DNA of 64,000 bases from an uncultured Flaviramulus sp. Its GTDB lineage: Bacteria > Bacteroidota > Bacteroidia > Flavobacteriales > Flavobacteriaceae. Below the pieces are notes generated by a model. The model was not told where the DNA came from. It was given only the letters and a program-made list of their open reading frames with translations, and made no database searches. Every line of letters starts with the position of its first letter. The first letter of the stretch is position 1. The stretch spans positions 104,403 to 168,402 of the forward strand of contig CANLXL010000010.1 of assembly GCA_947495125.1 (NCBI GenBank). Reading direction: 5' to 3'. The position numbers were made by a program, and so were the translations under genes. This document shows positions 6,941 through 50,882 of this stretch, piece after piece.

Positions 6941-9900
6941 TCAAAAACTTAGTTTAGCGATAATTTCTTCATCATCTTTTTTTGTAAGCCTAATGATTTT
7001 AGTTTCGTTAGTTTCATTTTTTGAACCATAATATTTATACATGGTTACTTTCATAAAGGTGGGACTCTCGACCTTTTGGTTACGATCACCATAGTATTTA
7101 ATTTTTATGTAGTAATCTCCTTTTACTGCTTGTTTTAAAGTAAATTCCTCAGGTCCAAATCCTTGTGTCATATCTGGGGACATATGGCCACCAATTTTAG
7201 TAGAAGTGTGTTTATAAAAGCATTCTTCCAGATTAGGGTCTATTATGTGTAAATCGATATCTGTATCGTTGTGATTCCAATCGACTACAACTCTAATGTC
7301 ATAAGCCACTTCCTCTAGTAATCTTTTGTCAATTTGACTTAAATCTAAATCATTCTTATACTTTTTGATTAGGTGTTTGATTTCATTTTGTGCAATTAGA
7401 GCAATCCCTTTAAAAACTCGTCTGTGATTGCCTTTATAAATCTTACCAGTAATGATACCATTATATAAATCTAAGGCTTTCTGACATCGTCCAATAGCCT
7501 CATATGCTAAGGCTAAATCTCTATAAGATTGAGAATCTTCAGGTCTTAATTCCAGAATTCGTTTAAAGATAAATACAGCTAAATCATCTTCACCTGAATC
7601 TTGAAGTTGGTAAGCAAATACCTTTAGTAATTCATAATTGTCAAAATCGGTTTCTGCGATATTTGATAATATTCTATGTGAATAGCTTAAATCATTGAAT
7701 TGGGTTTTAAAATAATTTGAAATATCTATGTAGTAAGCGGGTGTTTTAATGTGTTCTTCACGTTGAACTAAATATAAATTATAAGCTTCTTCTTTATTTT
7801 TGACTTGTCGCAGTTGAGAAATATATTTCGTTTTAACTTCACGTTTTTTTATGGTAAGCTCTCCGGAATATATCTTATAATTTGGAGTTGGTACTTGTTG
7901 TTCTATTTGCTCTACTTGAATTGTCTGCCCATTCTCTTCTAGATTAAATATGATTGGAAGTGAATATAAAACATCTGCGGGTCTATCTCTTTGTTCTCCA
8001 GGTTTCAGATGTGGTAATAATCGAATTACTCGTTTAACTTCCTCTGTTATTTTTGGATGCGGAGATCTAACGCGAATACGACTAACTATTCCTTCTGATG
8101 AAACTGCAAATAGTACATTAATACGTTGGCGCCCAGAACCAAGGCCTAAATCATTGGCAATTTCCAAATTGAAATGATTTTTAACATGATTGCTAACTTT
8201 TTTAGAAAAACAATTTCTTAACTCTTGATTGTTTCCTTCACAACCAGGAAATATAGGTGCTTTATCAATTATTGTAAAAGGGATGTCAATACTATCATTA
8301 GTTTCTAACATTAACCCAAGATGAGATACTTCAGATGATTCAATAACCTCGTCATCAACTTCTGAAAATGCATTAAGCATACCGGTGCTCTGAACTCGCT
8401 CTACAACCATTTCCTCAACCTCTACTATTTCTTCATCTTGAACTATTTCTATAGTATCTGGAGCAGTAGGAAGTGCAGGAGATTCCATAAAAAAATCAGT
8501 AGTTTCATGCCTCACATTTTTTTGAGATTCTATGCGGGCTAATATTTTATTATATTCTTCTAATAATTCGTTTGGCGGGGTAATTTTATAAGTAATATAA
8601 TCCATAACATTTTCCAGAACTATTAAGGATGTATAATCAGTTACTAGGCCATATTCGGTTCCAAGTTTTGTGATTTGTGATTTGTTCTCTTTAGATTTTA
8701 TTTCAAGGTTGTCCAATTTCTTTTGTGCCCAAATCCTTTTTACTTGCTCAAATGAGGTACTTGATTTTTTTATGTTTATAATCACCCTTTGCTTAATTTC
8801 ATTGCCATAACCAAAATTTAAGGTAATGGTTTCATTACCCTTTAAATACTTTCCAGAAACAGAAAAATCATTAGTTACACTCGTTGGAGATTTAGGGTAA
8901 ATTTCCAGATTCTTTAAGTTGGATTCATACCCTAAATATTTATAATTTTCATATTTAAAATAAGATAAAGCCTCGTCATTAGATTTAGTACTCAAATTTA
9001 TATAAGCCCCGTTAGATGATTCCGCTAAATGATTTAATACCGAATGGTTAGATTTTGTTATGCTATTAATAATAAATATGGGTTTGACAGGATCTAAACC
9101 AATCTCGCTCAATGAAGTTATCCCTTCTGAAAACAAGAGTTTAGCGTCAACTTTATTTTTTAGGTTATAAATAATGTCATAATTAGTGCCTCCATCATAG
9201 ATTGTTTTTTCAATCGTATTTTTAAGTTTATCCCAATTACCATTTACAACTTTAAATTGTTTATCTAATAGAACCGTATTACTAAATGAAACAAAGTGTA
9301 CCGTGACATTAGTTAAGTGCTTAAAATAACCTTCTAATAATTTTAATTCTTTTTGGATATTCCGGTCTTTCATGGAAAGTGAGGCATCCCAAAAAAGAGC
9401 AATTTCATTTGGTTTATCTCTGAGTCTTTTTTTAGGTTTAAGAGTTTTATAGACATAAAAGTAATTATCGTAGGTTAGGATTTTTTTAGTATCCAAAGAA
9501 ACTGGAACCTTCACTGAAATATTTTTATTGGCTATGAAATTCTTTTTAGTAACACTGGTTTTGTAGTTTTTGTTCCAAGCAGAAAATTCAAGACCTGAAA
9601 TATTTCCGTTATCTATAACTGGTTTCCCCTTCTGATCGAACACGGTAATTTCTAACCCAAAATGGTTTAACTTATTTTTAAAGCTTAGGGGTAGGTTATA
9701 ATAGTGGTCTCCATTGTTATAAGTTAGCTCTTGTTCGTATGCCAGTAAAACTCTTTTATAACCATTAGGAGGGATTGGATAAATTCGGGCCTTGTAATTA
9801 TTTCCTGTTCCTTTTTCCAAGAGAGCCGGGTCTACACCACGTCTCACAACTTGTTCGAAAGCTACTCTACCTAATTCTTTGTCAACAACAACGGCTTCTC

Positions 9901-10168
9901 TTAACCTTCCATTTACATCTAAAGCAAAACGTGATACATTGTGTCCTTCTCCAAGAGGAAATGACAATTCACCTTCCAGAACTTGATTTGTGGGATTATA
10001 GAAAAGCATATCATAAGTTGTTGTCGCTATATTACCCACAATATTAACTTGTATATCTAGCGATGATAGACCTAATTCTTTGTCTTTAACTTTTAGTTTT
10101 GGAGAGTTTTGAGTGTATCCAAATGCCATTATCAACAGCATAAGAATAAGCGGAAGTCTTGTTTTCAT
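6941..10168 (-). CDS. VIT and VWA domain protein with TonB-C-like, TPR and DUF2135-like regions
   Basis: N-terminal VIT-like segment (GELSFPLGEGHNVSRFALDVNGRLREAVVVDKELGRVAFEQVVRRGVDPALLE), VWA-like (IALFWDASLSMKDR), C-terminal VVDWNHNDTDIDLHIIDP as in DUF2135. Confidence 0.8.
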   Translation of the reverse strand: MKTRLPLILMLLIMAFGYTQNSPKLKVKDKELGLSSLDIQVNIVGNIATTTYDMLFYNPTNQVLEGELSFPLGEGHNVSRFALDVNGRLREAVVVDKELGRVAFEQVVRRGVDPALLEKGTGNNYKARIYPIPPNGYKRVLLAYEQELTYNNGDHYYNLPLSFKNKLNHFGLEITVFDQKGKPVIDNGNISGLEFSAWNKNYKTSVTKKNFIANKNISVKVPVSLDTKKILTYDNYFYVYKTLKPKKRLRDKPNEIALFWDASLSMKDRNIQKELKLLEGYFKHLTNVTVHFVSFSNTVLLDKQFKVVNGNWDKLKNTIEKTIYDGGTNYDIIYNLKNKVDAKLLFSEGITSLSEIGLDPVKPIFIINSITKSNHSVLNHLAESSNGAYINLSTKSNDEALSYFKYENYKYLGYESNLKNLEIYPKSPTSVTNDFSVSGKYLKGNETITLNFGYGNEIKQRVIINIKKSSTSFEQVKRIWAQKKLDNLEIKSKENKSQITKLGTEYGLVTDYTSLIVLENVMDYITYKITPPNELLEEYNKILARIESQKNVRHETTDFFMESPALPTAPDTIEIVQDEEIVEVEEMVVERVQSTGMLNAFSEVDDEVIESSEVSHLGLMLETNDSIDIPFTIIDKAPIFPGCEGNNQELRNCFSKKVSNHVKNHFNLEIANDLGLGSGRQRINVLFAVSSEGIVSRIRVRSPHPKITEEVKRVIRLLPHLKPGEQRDRPADVLYSLPIIFNLEENGQTIQVEQIEQQVPTPNYKIYSGELTIKKREVKTKYISQLRQVKNKEEAYNLYLVQREEHIKTPAYYIDISNYFKTQFNDLSYSHRILSNIAETDFDNYELLKVFAYQLQDSGEDDLAVFIFKRILELRPEDSQSYRDLALAYEAIGRCQKALDLYNGIITGKIYKGNHRRVFKGIALIAQNEIKHLIKKYKNDLDLSQIDKRLLEEVAYDIRVVVDWNHNDTDIDLHIIDPNLEECFYKHTSTKIGGHMSPDMTQGFGPEEFTLKQAVKGDYYIKIKYYGDRNQKVESPTFMKVTMYKYYGSKNETNETKIIRLTKKDDEEIIAKLSF

Positions 10169-20848: not shown

Positions 20849-20862
20849 AGCGGAGAAAGAGG
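20849..20862. repeat. putative attL core (tRNA-Ser 3'-end copy)
   Basis: agcggagaaagagg identical to 50796-50809, then diverges (aactatcc vs gattcgaaccc). Confidence 0.7.
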
Positions 20863-21156
20863 AACTATCCAGAATTTATTTTTTCTAGGTTTTGTGGGGT
20901 CTAAAAACAGCCTGAAATTTCAGTGACTCCGAATTAGCCCCTTTTTAACAATTATTTAACGATTTTAAGAGAATTTGGGGAGATTTATGCAAAATTGGTA
21001 TTTGTTAGATTCTTTAATTTTAATTACAAAAAAAAACCAACTTAGTTGAAGCTTTAAGCTCTCGATATCAATTGGGATTGTGGTTGGGCGGGCTGGGGTC
21101 ATAAACAAAGACCCAAATGCCAGTAATGGGAAGCTTTCCGAGAAACTTCACAAATA

Positions 21157-44327: not shown

Positions 44328-45020
44328 TCAGTTCGTTGTTTTTATGACTAGCGGTACCACCAGCATATAAGCAAAGCATAGCGCTATAATAACCAAACTT
44401 CCCAAAACACCTAAAGTAGTGTTTGCAAAGCCCATAACTGGAGGTAACAAAGCGCCGCCCACAATTGCCATAACCAGTAATCCGGAAATTTCGTTTGCTC
44501 TGGATGGCATCTTGTTAATGGCTATGGAAAAGATTATCGGAAAAAGGTTGCCTGCCCCCAAGCCAACAATAAAAATAGCTACGTTAGCCATAACAGCACC
44601 TGTTGAAAGTATAATGAGCGTCGTACCCGCCAGAGCAAGAAGTGCAGTAATTACCAAAAACAATTTTGGTTGTAAAAATTGAAGTAGAACGGCACCCGCA
44701 AAGCAACTTATCATTAAAGCCGTAAAGTAAATACTAATACCGTACGAGGCTTCCTCCAGAGTTAGGCCGTGGAGTTTCATTAAAAAGCCTTGTATGTTGG
44801 AGTTCATCCCTACATCGGCACCCACAATTAAAAATATGGCAATCACATTAGTCATCACAAATTTATTGCTAAGCAGTTGCATGCAGGAACGGAAAGATGC
44901 CGGTTTTTCCGATGTAATATTTTCGTCGATCTTGGTGGTATACAACCAAAGCATTGCCAATAGAGTCACTACGGCGTAAACGATAAATACCCATTTCCAA
45001 TCGCCGGGGTAAAGAATAAT
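44328..45020 (-). pseudogene. 5'-truncated FucP-like sugar MFS transporter (C-terminal half only)
   Basis: GLGAGNLFPIIFSIAINKMPSRANEISGLLVMAIVGGALLPPVMGF; frame continues upstream (IILYPGDWKWVFIVYAVVTLLAM) and then meets an in-frame TAG at 45021-45023. Confidence 0.8.
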
Positions 45021-45585: not shown

Positions 45586-46146
45586 ATGGAAAATCCTAAA
45601 ACCTTGCAACTCGATTTTGATTTTGAAATTAAAGCCATTCCAAAAGAAGAGGCAAAACCTATTAATGTAAAGAAAGCAAAAGAGAATTTTGTTTTTGATT
45701 TTATGGATTCCTTGACAAGCCCTGTCATTGTTTTTAAATCTGCCTGGCAGGATCCTGTACCGGCCAATGTCCTCGATAAAATTACTATGAGCAGGGTGTT
45801 GTGCAAAATGAAAGGAGAACGAATGGCCTCGTTTACCGAGGTTGTTGCTTACATGATGCCAAGAACTTTTGAAGCTCCCATGCCGTCCGAATGGGTTAAT
45901 ATCTATACATGGTGTGGACTTCAGCATACCAATTTGTTTAATAACTCCGAACAAAAAGAAGGCATGGTTTCTGCCATGCAAGAGATAGCACCAAATAAAT
46001 TGTCAGACTATGAACAGGGTTTGTTAAAACATCTAAGGCTTTGGATTTATGATAAAAGGCGTAAAGCTCTTAAAACGTCATTAAAAAATGCTAAACAAAG
46101 AACACCGGAGTCTAGCATAATCGAACAGAGAAATATATTCAGTTAA
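45586..46146 (+). CDS. conserved mobile-element-type hypothetical protein
   Basis: ORF from MENPKTLQLDFDF; genomic context with ssb, RadC and integrase. Confidence 0.55.
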   Translation: MENPKTLQLDFDFEIKAIPKEEAKPINVKKAKENFVFDFMDSLTSPVIVFKSAWQDPVPANVLDKITMSRVLCKMKGERMASFTEVVAYMMPRTFEAPMPSEWVNIYTWCGLQHTNLFNNSEQKEGMVSAMQEIAPNKLSDYEQGLLKHLRLWIYDKRRKALKTSLKNAKQRTPESSIIEQRNIFS

Positions 46147-46179
46147 TTACAATGTGTTCAAAGAAAAGATAATCGGAAG

Positions 46180-46560
46180 GACGAAACCTAAATGTTCTTT
46201 AACAGCATTATCGGCAAAACCTTCTTTGGTTTTTGCTCGACAATACTGGAACATTTAGATTTCGTCTGGACATTTTAAGGGGTTTATAATAGATAAAGCC
46301 TTTAGTTGTTTTTCGGGACAACGAAAAACAGGCAGAGCATAAGCATTTCTAGCTTAGCCCCATCTCCTTCAAATGCTTAACAACCTGTACGCATTCTCGC
46401 AAATGGTTCTAAAAGAACCTGCTAATACCCTTGTGGAACTTGTCAAGACTATACAAGTTTCAGAAAAAAATAAGGTTTCTACTGCCTTGTTTTTAATCCT
46501 TCGGTAAAAACTACGTCGCAGACACTCCTGATTTGTTTTCCAAAAGTCTTGACAAAACCC
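46180..46560. ncRNA. highly structured non-coding segment (candidate structured RNA or oriT-like region)
   Basis: At least five inverted repeats: 46180-46197/46249-46266 (17 of 18), 46214-46221/46228-46236, 46307-46315/46322-46330 (9 of 9), 46340-46348/46371-46379 (9 of 9), 46440-46450/46545-46555 (11 of 11). Confidence 0.4.
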
Positions 46561-46688
46561 ACTTTCTCTATTGGTGCTGTGCACGCAAGAAATCATACAA
46601 ATCACCCCTTAAAATTTAATTCAGATTAAAAACTAAAAGGGATTTATTAATCAATCTGCCCAGTGCAGATATTAAAAAACATTTTATT

Positions 46689-47030
46689 ATGAGTACGTTA
46701 AAAAACAAAGTACAGTTAATTGGAAATGTTGGTCAGGAACCAACCATTACAACTTTAGAAAGTGGTAAAAAAGTAGCCCGTTTGTCAATGGCTACCAATG
46801 AGAATTACAAGGACAGTAAAGGCGAAAAACAAACCGATACCAATTGGCATACCATTATTGCCTGGGGTAAGACGGCTGACATTATCGAAAAGTTTGTTAC
46901 CCAAGGTAAAGAAATAGCCGTAGAGGGTAAACTAAATACTCGGAATTATCAGGACAAAGACGGAAACAAGCGCTATGTGACCGAAGTTATCGTTTCGGAA
47001 GTTTTATTGCTTGGTGGCAATAACAATTAA
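46689..47030 (+). CDS. ssb: single-stranded DNA-binding protein
   Basis: MSTLKNKVQLIGNVGQEPTITTLESGKKVARLSMATNENY...TNWHTIIAWGKTADIIEKFVTQGKEIAVEGKLNTRNYQDKDGNKRYVTEVIV. Confidence 0.95.
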   Translation: MSTLKNKVQLIGNVGQEPTITTLESGKKVARLSMATNENYKDSKGEKQTDTNWHTIIAWGKTADIIEKFVTQGKEIAVEGKLNTRNYQDKDGNKRYVTEVIVSEVLLLGGNNN

Positions 47031-47090: not shown

Positions 47091-47597
47091 ATGAAAATAA
47101 TAATGAAATCGAATATTCACGAATCCCAAAATAAATTTTCAATCATGAGTAAAGACAAAGTTAACGAAATAAGCATAAGCTATAAAGAGAAAATACGAAC
47201 CGTAGAATCGAAATCCGTTAAGAGTTCAGAAGCTGCAGCCAAACTGTTTTTTGAAAGTTGGAATACAGACACCATAGGCTTTCAGGAAACCTTTAAAGTG
47301 CTACTACTCAATAATGCCAATAAGATTAAAGGGGTGTATCAATTGTCAACTGGAAGCCTGACAGGAACCGTAATCGATATGCGTATCCTGTTTGCCGTTA
47401 TCATAAAAACCTTAAGTGTCAATGTAATTCTAGCACATAACCATCCATCGGGTCAATTGTTACCTAGTGAAGCCGATAAAAAGTTGACCCAAAAAATAAA
47501 GGGTGCAGCTCAGTTCTTTGATGTTAATGTACTGGACCATTTGATTATTACCCCAAGTGGTAACTATTATAGTTTTGCCGATAATGGGCTAATATAA
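47091..47597 (+). CDS. RadC-like JAB-domain protein
   Basis: GFQETFKVLLLNNANKIKGVYQLSTGSLTGTVIDMRILFAVIIKTLSVNVILAHNHPSGQLLPSEADKKLTQKIKGAAQFFDVNVLDHLIIT. Confidence 0.92.
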   Translation: MKIIMKSNIHESQNKFSIMSKDKVNEISISYKEKIRTVESKSVKSSEAAAKLFFESWNTDTIGFQETFKVLLLNNANKIKGVYQLSTGSLTGTVIDMRILFAVIIKTLSVNVILAHNHPSGQLLPSEADKKLTQKIKGAAQFFDVNVLDHLIITPSGNYYSFADNGLI

Positions 47598-47607
47598 TAA
47601 GCGGGTT

Positions 47608-47805
47608 ATGGTCTATTTGAATTATAATAACCTCGATGCAGAAACCCAAAATCGGTTGCTTGAAAATTCCAAGCATGATGTGGAGCAACAATGTGGAAAC
47701 GATTTGAAAGCCTATGCCATAGAAAACCATTTGGATTATGATACCCTATTGGAAGAAGAAGCGATACGAAACCTCTATAATTATAAGTATGTATTTAATA
47801 TATGA
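47608..47805 (+). CDS. small hypothetical protein of element backbone
   Basis: 65-aa ORF 10 bp after the RadC-like gene, followed by a terminator-like hairpin. Confidence 0.5.
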   Translation: MVYLNYNNLDAETQNRLLENSKHDVEQQCGNDLKAYAIENHLDYDTLLEEEAIRNLYNYKYVFNI

Positions 47806-48264
47806 TGGAAAGACACATTAATCATTTAAAACAAGGCCTTTGAATTTTCAGAGGTCTTATTTTTTTAATCAATTTTAAGGGTCTTGAACTTTGAATCTGA
47901 CGTTTCTTTTTGCCTGTTTCATGAAATCCATAAAAAATGTTTCCAAACCAGTACAATTCAGTTCAAACCACGTTTTACAATTTCCGATCAATTAGATAAC
48001 TTTAAAAGAGTCGCAGGTAATAAAAAAGCAACTGACCCTAAAGGTCATGTTGTTCGTAGATTTTTGGTCCCTGCGGGACAAAATCGGAGAAGCAAGAGGG
48101 TAACACGCTTCGCGATGTTACGATTATACGATTTTCGAAATAAACATAGTGTTTATAGGGTTTGGCATATCTTTTAGACTTTTTGAGATTTTGTTATAAA
48201 CGCTACTTTTTTACTAAAAACATTTAGTAACCACCGTAAAAAGGCAATTATTTTACTAAAAACT

Positions 48265-48681
48265 ATGGATAAAGGATTTGAAAAAGAAGAATTTGAAACG
48301 ATAAAGATCAAAAGTTCTGTTGCGATTGAGTTTAGAAAATTTAGCAAAATGCTCTCGAAATCGCAATCGATGACATTGCTTTTAATGATGGAATTTTTTA
48401 ATGAAAATGGAATTTCCCCAGCCGAGCATTTAGGACCTCGAATGGAAACTTTGGAAAATAGAATTTCTGCACTAATCAAAAAACGGATGAACGGAATGAT
48501 CGCTATTATGAAGGATATTGAGAAGTCACAAACCAAACCGACCGTGGCGATGATGCAAACTCTTTTTCAAGCAGCAGAACCACCCAAAAAGAAATTGATT
48601 TTAGCAAAAAAAATTAAAAGGGGAAAGAATAAAGTTTGGTTTCAAGAAAAGAAATATTTGAATAGTAATGATAATGAGTAA
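48265..48681 (+). CDS. BfmA/BtgA-like mobilisation-associated protein
   Basis: FETIKIKSSVAIEFRKFSKMLSKSQSMTLLLMMEFFNENGISP..LGPRMETLENRISALIKKRMNGMIAIMKDIEK plus position upstream of the integrase. Confidence 0.6.
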   Translation: MDKGFEKEEFETIKIKSSVAIEFRKFSKMLSKSQSMTLLLMMEFFNENGISPAEHLGPRMETLENRISALIKKRMNGMIAIMKDIEKSQTKPTVAMMQTLFQAAEPPKKKLILAKKIKRGKNKVWFQEKKYLNSNDNE

Positions 48682-49343
48682 TGGAAAGGGTAAACTATAT
48701 TATTCACCTTAATACTATCCTGGAAATATTCAATAATGATGAGTGCATTAAGCAAGGACATATTACCTTGTACTTAGCATTATTTCAGCTGTGGAATCGA
48801 AAGTTTTTCAAAGAGACCTTAACCATTAATCGTGAGCTAATAATGGAAAGGGCGAAGATTAAATCAAAAACGACTTATCATAATCATTTACGAGATTTAG
48901 ATACCTGGGGGTATCTAACCTATTATCCATCATACAATCCATCAAGGGGCTCTAAAATTAAGATGACCAGAGCTTATCCCAAAAGTGGGACAACTTCTGG
49001 TACACATGAGGCTCAAAATTTGGCCAACACCGTCCCAGAACCTAGCCAAAATTTGGTATCTTTTAATAAACATAAAACAAAAGAAAACTTAAATAAACAG
49101 CCTAAGATTATTTTTAATGAAAGTGAAGTCACTTTATTCTTTAAGAAAAATAATTGGCCAGAGATAGAAGCACTAAAATTTTATGCCTACATTAAGTCGA
49201 AAAAATGGAAAACAAATAATTGGCACATGATTGCGAAGGTTTTTGTGAGAAACGATTTTAAATTGAAAGAACCGAAAACTACCAGTCCAATTTCTGGCTA
49301 TGTGAATCGTATGAGGCAAATTAGTGATAAAAACAAGAATTAG
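48681..49343 (+). CDS. element-encoded hypothetical, winged-helix/replication-regulator-like
   Basis: GHITLYLALFQLWNRKFFKETLTINRELIMERAKIKSKTTYHNHLRDLDTWGYLTYYPSYNP resembles small replication/regulatory proteins of Bacteroidota islands. Confidence 0.5.
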   Translation: MERVNYIIHLNTILEIFNNDECIKQGHITLYLALFQLWNRKFFKETLTINRELIMERAKIKSKTTYHNHLRDLDTWGYLTYYPSYNPSRGSKIKMTRAYPKSGTTSGTHEAQNLANTVPEPSQNLVSFNKHKTKENLNKQPKIIFNESEVTLFFKKNNWPEIEALKFYAYIKSKKWKTNNWHMIAKVFVRNDFKLKEPKTTSPISGYVNRMRQISDKNKN

Positions 49344-49346
49344 TCG

Positions 49347-50558
49347 CTACTTAAACTTATTCCTCAAAATTTCCATATCCTTGCTTACTTTCATATCCAA
49401 TATTTTAGCATAATGCTGAGTCGTTTTAAGATTGGTATGACCAAGCATCTTACTTACTGATTCTATCGGAACGCCATTGGTAAGTGTTACCGTCGTTGCA
49501 AAGGTATGTCGAGCTAAATGAAAAGTGAGGTTTTTGGTAATACCCGCTAAAGTTGCAATCTCTTTAATGTACGCATTCATTTTCTGATTGCTTAGTACAG
49601 GTAGGACTAAATTCTTTTCTTTCAGCAGCTCGTTATCTTTATACTTTTCGATGATGACTTTTGCAATGGGTAAAATCGGGATATTACTTCTAGTATCGGT
49701 TTTAGAGCGTTTTGTTTTGACCCATTCTTCGCCATCCGCACCTAAAACGATATCCCCTCTATTCAGTTTTTTGACATCAGCATAAGCTAGACCAGTAAAA
49801 CAGCAAAAGATAAAAATATCGCGTACTTGGTCGAGTCGTTCCATCTTGAGCTCTAGCTCGATAATCTTTTGAATTTCTTCTTCCGTTAAAAATTCACGCT
49901 CTACAATTTTGAGTTTGGCTTTCCAATGCAAGAAAGGATCTTTTTCAATCCAATCGTTAGCATGAGCAATACGGATAATCTTTTTAAAATTAGTGATATA
50001 CTTAATGGCGGAGTTGTGTGCACACTTCCGAGTGGTTTTAAGGTAGTATTCCATCTCTGTGATAAATTTATGGTCTACATCTTGAACAGGAATATCATTT
50101 TTCTTGTATTTCTTCTTAATAAAGTCTGCTACGTGTTTTTTACAAGTACAGTAACGTTCAGCAGTTCCTGCGGCAAAATCTTTCCCAATAAGACTATTAA
50201 CTTTGTCATTATGTTCTTGAAAGATTTCTAGAAGCATTTTCTTCGTTTTGTCTTTACCTAGATATACATCGCGTAATTGAGAAGCGGTATACGTTGTTCC
50301 GTCTCGTTGAAACTTTTGTTCTATGGTGTAGATTTTATTTCTAATAAATTCAATTTCTCTATTTATTTCCTGATTCTCTGGTGAATTGCCTAATACATTT
50401 TGTAATCTACTATTCCATAAATCATTATCCACTTTTCGATTAATACTGCATTCAGCCCGCTTACCGTCTAGGGTTATGCGGAGATAAATATTGGTATATC
50501 CCTGAAGATTAGCCTTACTTTTTTTGATATAAAATAATATTGAGAGTTGAACTGACAC
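49347..50558 (-). CDS. tyrosine recombinase/integrase (CTnDOT-like type), GTG start
   Basis: Arm-binding and SAM-like N-terminus; HLARHTFATTVTLTNGVPIESVSKMLGHTNLKTTQHYAKI. Confidence 0.95.
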   Translation of the reverse strand: MSVQLSILFYIKKSKANLQGYTNIYLRITLDGKRAECSINRKVDNDLWNSRLQNVLGNSPENQEINREIEFIRNKIYTIEQKFQRDGTTYTASQLRDVYLGKDKTKKMLLEIFQEHNDKVNSLIGKDFAAGTAERYCTCKKHVADFIKKKYKKNDIPVQDVDHKFITEMEYYLKTTRKCAHNSAIKYITNFKKIIRIAHANDWIEKDPFLHWKAKLKIVEREFLTEEEIQKIIELELKMERLDQVRDIFIFCCFTGLAYADVKKLNRGDIVLGADGEEWVKTKRSKTDTRSNIPILPIAKVIIEKYKDNELLKEKNLVLPVLSNQKMNAYIKEIATLAGITKNLTFHLARHTFATTVTLTNGVPIESVSKMLGHTNLKTTQHYAKILDMKVSKDMEILRNKFK

Positions 50559-50698
50559 CGAATGAATTTAAAAATTACTTCAATGTAGTAAAAAATAATC
50601 AAATCAGCGTTATTTTAAATAATTGAATATCAATTATTTAACATCCATTCGGTGTCAGTTGTAGATAGTTTTTAAGTGACACCGAATTAGCCCCTTTT
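50550..50698. promoter_or_regulatory. integrase arm-site-like cluster
   Basis: aactgacaccgaatg at 50550-50564, exact inverted copy at 50646-50660, and gtgacaccgaat at 50676-50687 within the repeat shared with 20922-20945. Confidence 0.6.
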
Positions 50699-50739
50699 AG
50701 GATGATATTATTTGATATCAAATGAAATCATATAAAATA

Positions 50740-50774
50740 AAAAACCCTGTAAATCAATTATTTACAGGGTTTTT
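50740..50774. terminator. 15-bp perfect-stem terminator-like hairpin downstream of tRNA-Ser (element-borne)
   Basis: aaaaaccctgtaaat-caatt-atttacagggttttt. Confidence 0.7.
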
Positions 50775-50797
50775 ATTGCCTTTTGTAGGTCTTTTAG

Positions 50798-50882
50798 CGG
50801 AGAAAGAGGGATTCGAACCCCCGGAGGTGTGACCCTCAACAGTTTTCAAGACTGCCGCATTCGACCACTCTGCCATTTCTCC
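50798..50882 (-). tRNA. tRNA-Ser(UGA)
   Basis: ggagaaatggcagagtggtcgaatgcggcagtcttgaaaactgttgagggtcacacctccgggggttcgaatccctctttctccg: 7-bp acceptor stem, anticodon loop cttgaaa (TGA), long variable arm, ggttcgaatcc T-arm. Confidence 0.95.

Follow-up and report, generated by a model that had tools for sequence, protein, structure and literature searches.

A deeply conserved folding element lies immediately before ssb in mobile islands of marine Flavobacteriaceae. The copy studied here comes from a 64,000-nucleotide stretch of an uncultured Flaviramulus sp. (contig CANLXL010000010.1, positions 104,403 to 168,402, referred to hereafter as the window), in which it separates a conserved backbone gene from ssb. 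The element folds far better than shuffled sequence, its base pairs covary among homologues, the fold is selected on one strand (the complement of the ssb message, hereafter minus), and its outer edge keeps a short spacing to the ssb start across loci. We regard it as probably a cis-acting single-stranded DNA promoter or priming site of the leading region, akin to the Frpo/ssi elements of conjugative plasmids.

A preliminary description of this DNA had portrayed a strongly structured, non-coding block of ~540 bp rich in inverted repeats, and the portrayal of its structure holds, both strands beating shuffles and homologues covarying, with the proviso that the structured part spans ~46179–46615, the remainder (46616–46688) being an ssb leader outside the conserved fold. 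The repeats given there are present (18-nt arms 46180–46197/46249–46266, 94% match; perfect 9-nt stems 46307–46315/46322–46330 and 46340–46348/46371–46379; a hairpin at 46405–46419, read directly off the sequence), as is the pair 46440–46450/46545–46555, which extends further than claimed (46433–46450/46545–46562 at 83%). A perfect 12-bp pair that had been missed (46272–46283/46604–46615) closes the core and is referred to hereafter as helix P1. The parts of the element are as follows:

46272–46615, minus strand: conserved core, comprising the closing helix and a branched interior (RNAalifold on 67 homologues, covariation); conservation ends at its outer edge
46604–46615, minus strand: 5′ strand of closing helix P1, near-invariant 12 bp, partner 46272–46283
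46272–46283, minus strand: 3′ strand of closing helix P1
46574–46584, minus strand: small hairpin, GUGC–3 nt–GCAC
46433–46562, minus strand: long rod-like arm whose internal loops are near-invariant in sequence
46334–46431, minus strand: second arm, with double changes at many pairs
46298–46333, minus strand: hairpin with the 9-bp stem 46307–46315/46322–46330
46179–46267, minus strand: separate long hairpin beyond the core, its pairing kept and its sequence variable

Under RNA parameters the minus strand of the window copy folds to −175.9 kcal/mol (z −8.7) and the plus strand more weakly, to −136.9 kcal/mol (z −6.5), and none of 100 shuffles equalled either; under DNA energy parameters the strands are nearly equal (z −7.5 and −7.1). 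The earlier statement that the block holds no convincing open reading frame stands. In homologues a small plus-strand frame runs to ~58 aa; as it stays open at just 38 of 76 loci and is closed in the window copy, a coding reading was rejected, and conservation of the fold best accounts for its openness elsewhere.

The block is single-copy within its own genome. At E ≤ 0.001, blastn matched 73 of 400 sampled Flavobacteriaceae genomes (some dozen matches short and weak, ~60 convincing), and a 21-base pattern recurs in at least 117 stretches of GTDB contigs which, among the matches listed, are essentially all Flavobacteriaceae, one MAG labelled Saprospirales being the occurrence outside the family; the same pattern is present on two IMG/VR contigs. 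A class-wide sample likewise gave block matches solely within Flavobacteriaceae and none in other families, plasmid and phage collections yielded no homologue of the block at blastn sensitivity, and Rfam returned no match to it at either gathering or permissive thresholds.

The RNAalifold consensus of 67 homologues, aligned on the minus strand, contains 156 pairs, with 92% of cells pairing and changes on both sides at 97 pairs. A structure-blind covariation analysis of 111,628 column pairs recovers exact structural pairs at 13 of its top 20 (0.03 expected) and 35 of its top 100 (0.14 expected); P1 is nearly invariant and hence uninformative in this respect. The search for compensatory substitutions suggested in the preliminary description therefore yielded strong covariation. 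Minus-strand pairs include 971 G.U cells against 129 A.C cells (9.4% vs 1.2%), from which we take minus to be the selected strand; the plus-strand consensus pairs more weakly and there G.U (2.5%) falls below A.C (3.6%). Many near-invariant unpaired bases, in loops and internal loops, sit within the branched minus-strand shape. At one locus (L109, near 8531–8780) the interior, equivalent to 46294–46596, is cleanly absent, with the outer parts kept.

The tie to ssb is close. In 126 of 138 non-redundant loci the first gene past the block is ssb, in the same direction (122 labelled automatically, plus four whose ssb-like product was identified by inspection), and at the automatically labelled loci its start lies 32–116 bp from P1 (median 53). 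Several exceptions place another plus-strand gene 21–121 bp from P1, among them RadC at 48 bp and a 72-aa gene at 21–35 bp, and the block occurs without ssb in L048, a small island, and in a few further ones. One locus (L093) has two copies ~1 kb apart (near 8285–8802 and 9684–10133), each ahead of its own gene, an arrangement that we liken to Frpo1 and Frpo2 of F. The folded minus strand is the ssb template.

Searches for promoters were negative on both strands. Conservation stops at P1, and no promoter that could give rise to a minus-strand RNA is conserved beyond it. Bacteroidota promoters follow the consensus −33 TTG/−7 TAnnTTTG; neither this nor a −35/−10 pair is conserved in the fold on either strand, and a conserved minus-strand TTGACA at 46446 is unaccompanied by a matching −10. 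The consensus shows no clear U-tract at the long hairpin 46179–46267.

The block resides in a mobilizable element of ~30 kb (20849–50809), its borders defined by repeats of the tRNA-Ser end and by an integrase arm repeat at 20923 (GTGAC[A/T]CCGAAT, with further copies at 50552, 50647, and 50676). The cargo is a polysaccharide utilisation locus encoding SusC/SusD-like proteins, sigma/anti-sigma regulators, and glycoside hydrolases (domains SusC/D, NAGLU, GH5, GH95, and GH123); at its edge lies what appears to be a truncated sugar MFS transporter gene, reduced to its C-terminal part (44328–44969, minus strand). Beyond the cargo the order is 186-aa gene, block, ssb, RadC, 65-aa gene, candidate oriT, BfmA, 220-aa gene, and integrase:

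20849–20862: left attachment repeat AGCGGAGAAAGAGG, a 14-bp copy of the tRNA-Ser end
45586–46146, plus strand: 186-aa conserved backbone gene, convergent with the minus-strand fold; no match in Pfam/NCBIfam
46689–47030, plus strand: ssb, the first gene past the element
47091–47597, plus strand: RadC/JAB-domain gene
47608–47805, plus strand: 65-aa conserved leading-region gene
48091–48121, minus strand: candidate oriT, a hairpin GTAACA..TGTTAC (48100–48121) followed by invariant CCTCTTGCT on this strand
48265–48681, plus strand: BfmA/BtgA family mobilization protein (NF041200, 9.7e-30)
48681–49343, plus strand: 220-aa conserved island gene
49347–50558, minus strand: tyrosine integrase
50796–50809: right attachment repeat, the tRNA-Ser 3′ end

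In related elements, DUF932 and ParB-like genes are present upstream, and genes for a DUF5712 protein and a type IV coupling protein lie downstream of BfmA; the location of the DUF5712 protein and its HxH motif mark it as the putative relaxase. The island in the window carries neither the DUF5712 protein nor the coupling protein and would therefore need a helper.

Upstream of BfmA, conservation at the DNA level peaks at AGCAAGAGGGTAACACGC, whose first 12 bases are present in 114 of 117 loci. The motif marks 114 sites in 69 of 301 genomes, compared with 0 for a reversed control among the matches listed, and changes in the stem of its minus-strand hairpin are compensated across relatives. It bears a likeness to the MOBV nic site (AGCGTG/TTA vs TAGTGTG/TTA), which is suggestive only because the GTG part varies among relatives. 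On the strand that a relaxase cleaves, the hairpin of its site precedes the nick on the 5′ side; by this rule the cut here should fall in the minus strand, which would then lead leftward. The layout of the candidate oriT thus suggests that minus is the transferred strand, with a predicted path along which the 65-aa gene, RadC, ssb, and then the block would enter first. In block loci the leading-region genes all point toward oriT, and those of plasmids are likewise reported to be of fixed orientation (PMC11541004). The block itself had been put forward as an oriT, a role that is unlikely given the distinct conserved motif adjoining the BfmA gene: the block is present at 35 of the 114 oriT sites (invariably on the ssb side, 0.8–1.9 kb from oriT) and absent from the other 79, and the 48091–48121 motif fits that role instead. 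The motif is usable for finding mobilizable BfmA/DUF5712 islands in Flavobacteriaceae.

Comparison with known systems points to the Frpo/ssi elements of F, ColIb-P9, and related plasmids, which share with the block a position in the leading region, just before ssb, among genes directed toward oriT. In F, early ssb expression in the recipient depends in vivo on Frpo2, which stands directly before that gene (PMC9849209), and Frpo also primes DNA synthesis in vitro (PMC7690428). Twelve Frpo homologues, passed through the same pipeline as the block, gave 155 pairs, with G.T at 8.8% vs A.C at 0.2% on the transferred strand and weaker folding of the opposite one. Frpo and the block agree in strand bias, length, and number of pairs (155 vs 156), the transferred strand being predicted in the case of the block. 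Since the single-stranded DNA of Frpo gives the same bias, a preference for G.U is no proof of RNA and fits an Frpo-like element, and we dropped it as an argument for RNA; RNase P, tried as an RNA control, aligned too poorly to serve as a yardstick (54% identity). The leading region of F also contains ssb, ParB, and DUF932, which likewise occur among the neighbours of the block. Like Frpo/ssi, the block is non-coding and occupies a leading region, where ssb or another establishment gene comes directly after it, whereas it shows no sequence similarity to Frpo (blastn, plasmid collection including F), is branched and closed where Frpo is mainly a rod, is without the recognised −35/−10 boxes that Frpo has, and belongs to Flavobacteriaceae islands rather than enterobacterial plasmids. 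Because it departs from Frpo/ssi in sequence and boxes, we do not file it as a member.

Sites at which the candidate oriT occurs without the block provide a further view of this position. We sampled 40 of the 79 (20 with ssb, 20 without; block-query matches at these sites are to the ssb start, which the query included). At 19 of the 20 ssb-positive sites a strong fold on the predicted transferred strand occupies the 420 bases before ssb, with mean z of −7.7 on that strand vs −5.0 on the coding strand (dinucleotide shuffles). This second family forms one long imperfect hairpin, or rod, of ~130 pairs; it has no sequence similarity to the block, yet a similar ssb leader, and its G.U and A.C frequencies are 12.0% vs 1.9% on the transferred strand and 3.6 vs 4.1 on the other. 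Elements without ssb are mostly without such a fold (median best z −3.1 vs −6.0), L336, L348, L354, and L364 being exceptions. The occurrence of two unrelated folds at one position, in each case on the same strand, argues for a function in cis with ssb. It is tempting, if still tentative, to view these at least two unrelated classes of transferred-strand fold (branched and rod) as box-less single-stranded promoters for Bacteroidota RNA polymerase; if so, gene expression from single-stranded DNA in the course of transfer would have more than one evolutionary origin. Members of the rod family (L330–L369, ~420 bp upstream of ssb) contain conserved GATTTACTT motifs, and an internal loop carries a TTATTTTGC-like segment.

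A working model can be proposed on this basis. The minus strand would enter the recipient first from the oriT side, and once ssb, RadC, and the block had entered, the minus strand of the block would fold into a closed, branched duplex beside the ssb start. Recipient RNA polymerase or primase could then begin RNA synthesis toward ssb from the partly double-stranded fold, such that SSB and other leading-region proteins would be made, and/or the complementary strand primed, before the island became double-stranded; conversion to the double-stranded form would remove the fold and so turn the signal off.

Selection of the fold on the minus strand, the like behaviour of the Frpo control, and the position before ssb all favor such a single-stranded DNA promoter or priming site, as do the polarity of the candidate oriT, the replacement of the block by the rod fold, the general scarcity of folds in ssb-less elements, and the want of a conserved minus-strand RNA promoter outside P1. 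The case is weakened by the absence of canonical boxes, by branched, near-invariant loops that look RNA-like, by a G.U bias that cannot separate RNA from single-stranded DNA (with DNA-parameter folds near equal), by the retention of the block without ssb in L048 and a few others, and by the nicked strand being itself predicted from the oriT layout. Among the roles originally suggested for the block, a single-strand origin comes closest to this best-supported reading, that of a leading-region DNA fold on the predicted transferred strand. A single-strand initiation site alone (sso/ssi), loading primase or RNA polymerase and owing its proximity to ssb to inherited synteny, is improbable. It would account for the strand, the leading-region position, and the absent promoter boxes, and has precedents in the in vitro priming by Frpo itself (PMC7690428) and in the single-strand origins of ICEs such as ICEBs1 (PMC4595007); against this, the first gene lies close to the fold even where it is not ssb, and oriT islands without ssb, which must become double-stranded too, are mostly fold-less. 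Like sso/ssoA and ICEBs1 sso1, the block would be a structured single-strand signal of a conjugative element, but it is larger and bound to the ssb start in the leading region.

The strongest claim for RNA is that of a trans-acting structured transcript of ~450 nt, made from the minus strand divergently from ssb and serving, as RNA or RNP, in transfer, maintenance, or regulation. In its favor are the strong covariation on the minus strand, with conserved G.U pairs and near-invariant unpaired bases, and the z of −8.7 under RNA parameters; moreover, mobilization of Salmonella genomic island 1 (SGI1) reportedly depends on a small RNA that the island itself encodes (PMC9299015), and this sgm-sRNA resembles the block in lying near the oriT of a mobilizable island, where it is reported to be essential for transfer. 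However, sgm-sRNA derives from a messenger 3′ end and the block has no visible promoter, conservation ending at P1; the block is tied to the ssb start, an unrelated same-strand fold substitutes where it is absent, and it matches nothing in Rfam. The last point also sets it apart, even at permissive thresholds, from OLE, ROOL, and GOLLD RNAs, which it recalls in running to hundreds of nucleotides, being branched, and having conserved loops. We judge a trans-acting RNA less probable than the single-stranded DNA reading, of which it is the main rival. An autoregulatory or attenuator RNA in the plus-strand ssb 5′ leader, also suggested at the outset, is very unlikely: the block adjoins ssb and its plus strand too beats shuffles (z −6.5), but the selected fold sits on the complement of the ssb message, with G.U tolerated on minus, weaker pairing on plus, and A.C exceeding G.U there. 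Least credible of all is a decayed gene or a chance collection of inverted repeats. The former, named as an alternative in the preliminary description, could draw on the ~58-aa frame that is open in half of the homologues; it is not open in the window copy or in the other half, and covariation with conservation across many genera refutes both.

Single-stranded promoters have been studied mainly in enterobacterial plasmids, and the main text of a recent survey of leading regions makes no mention of Bacteroidota (PMC11541004). If the preferred reading as a single-stranded promoter or priming site is correct, early expression from entering single-stranded DNA would be a general strategy of mobile islands, and the Flavobacteriaceae counterpart, with its two unrelated folds at one site, would offer a system for testing how folded DNA is read by a polymerase with different promoter preferences; were the block an RNA instead, it would represent an undescribed class of ~450 nt found in ~1/6 of Flavobacteriaceae genomes. 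As the island carries a polysaccharide-degradation locus, the element may help such traits to spread at sea.

The island contains a second strongly structured stretch, between the integrase and tRNA-Ser (50559–50796, z −6.4), which holds integrase arm repeats and a 15-bp perfect hairpin resembling a tRNA terminator.
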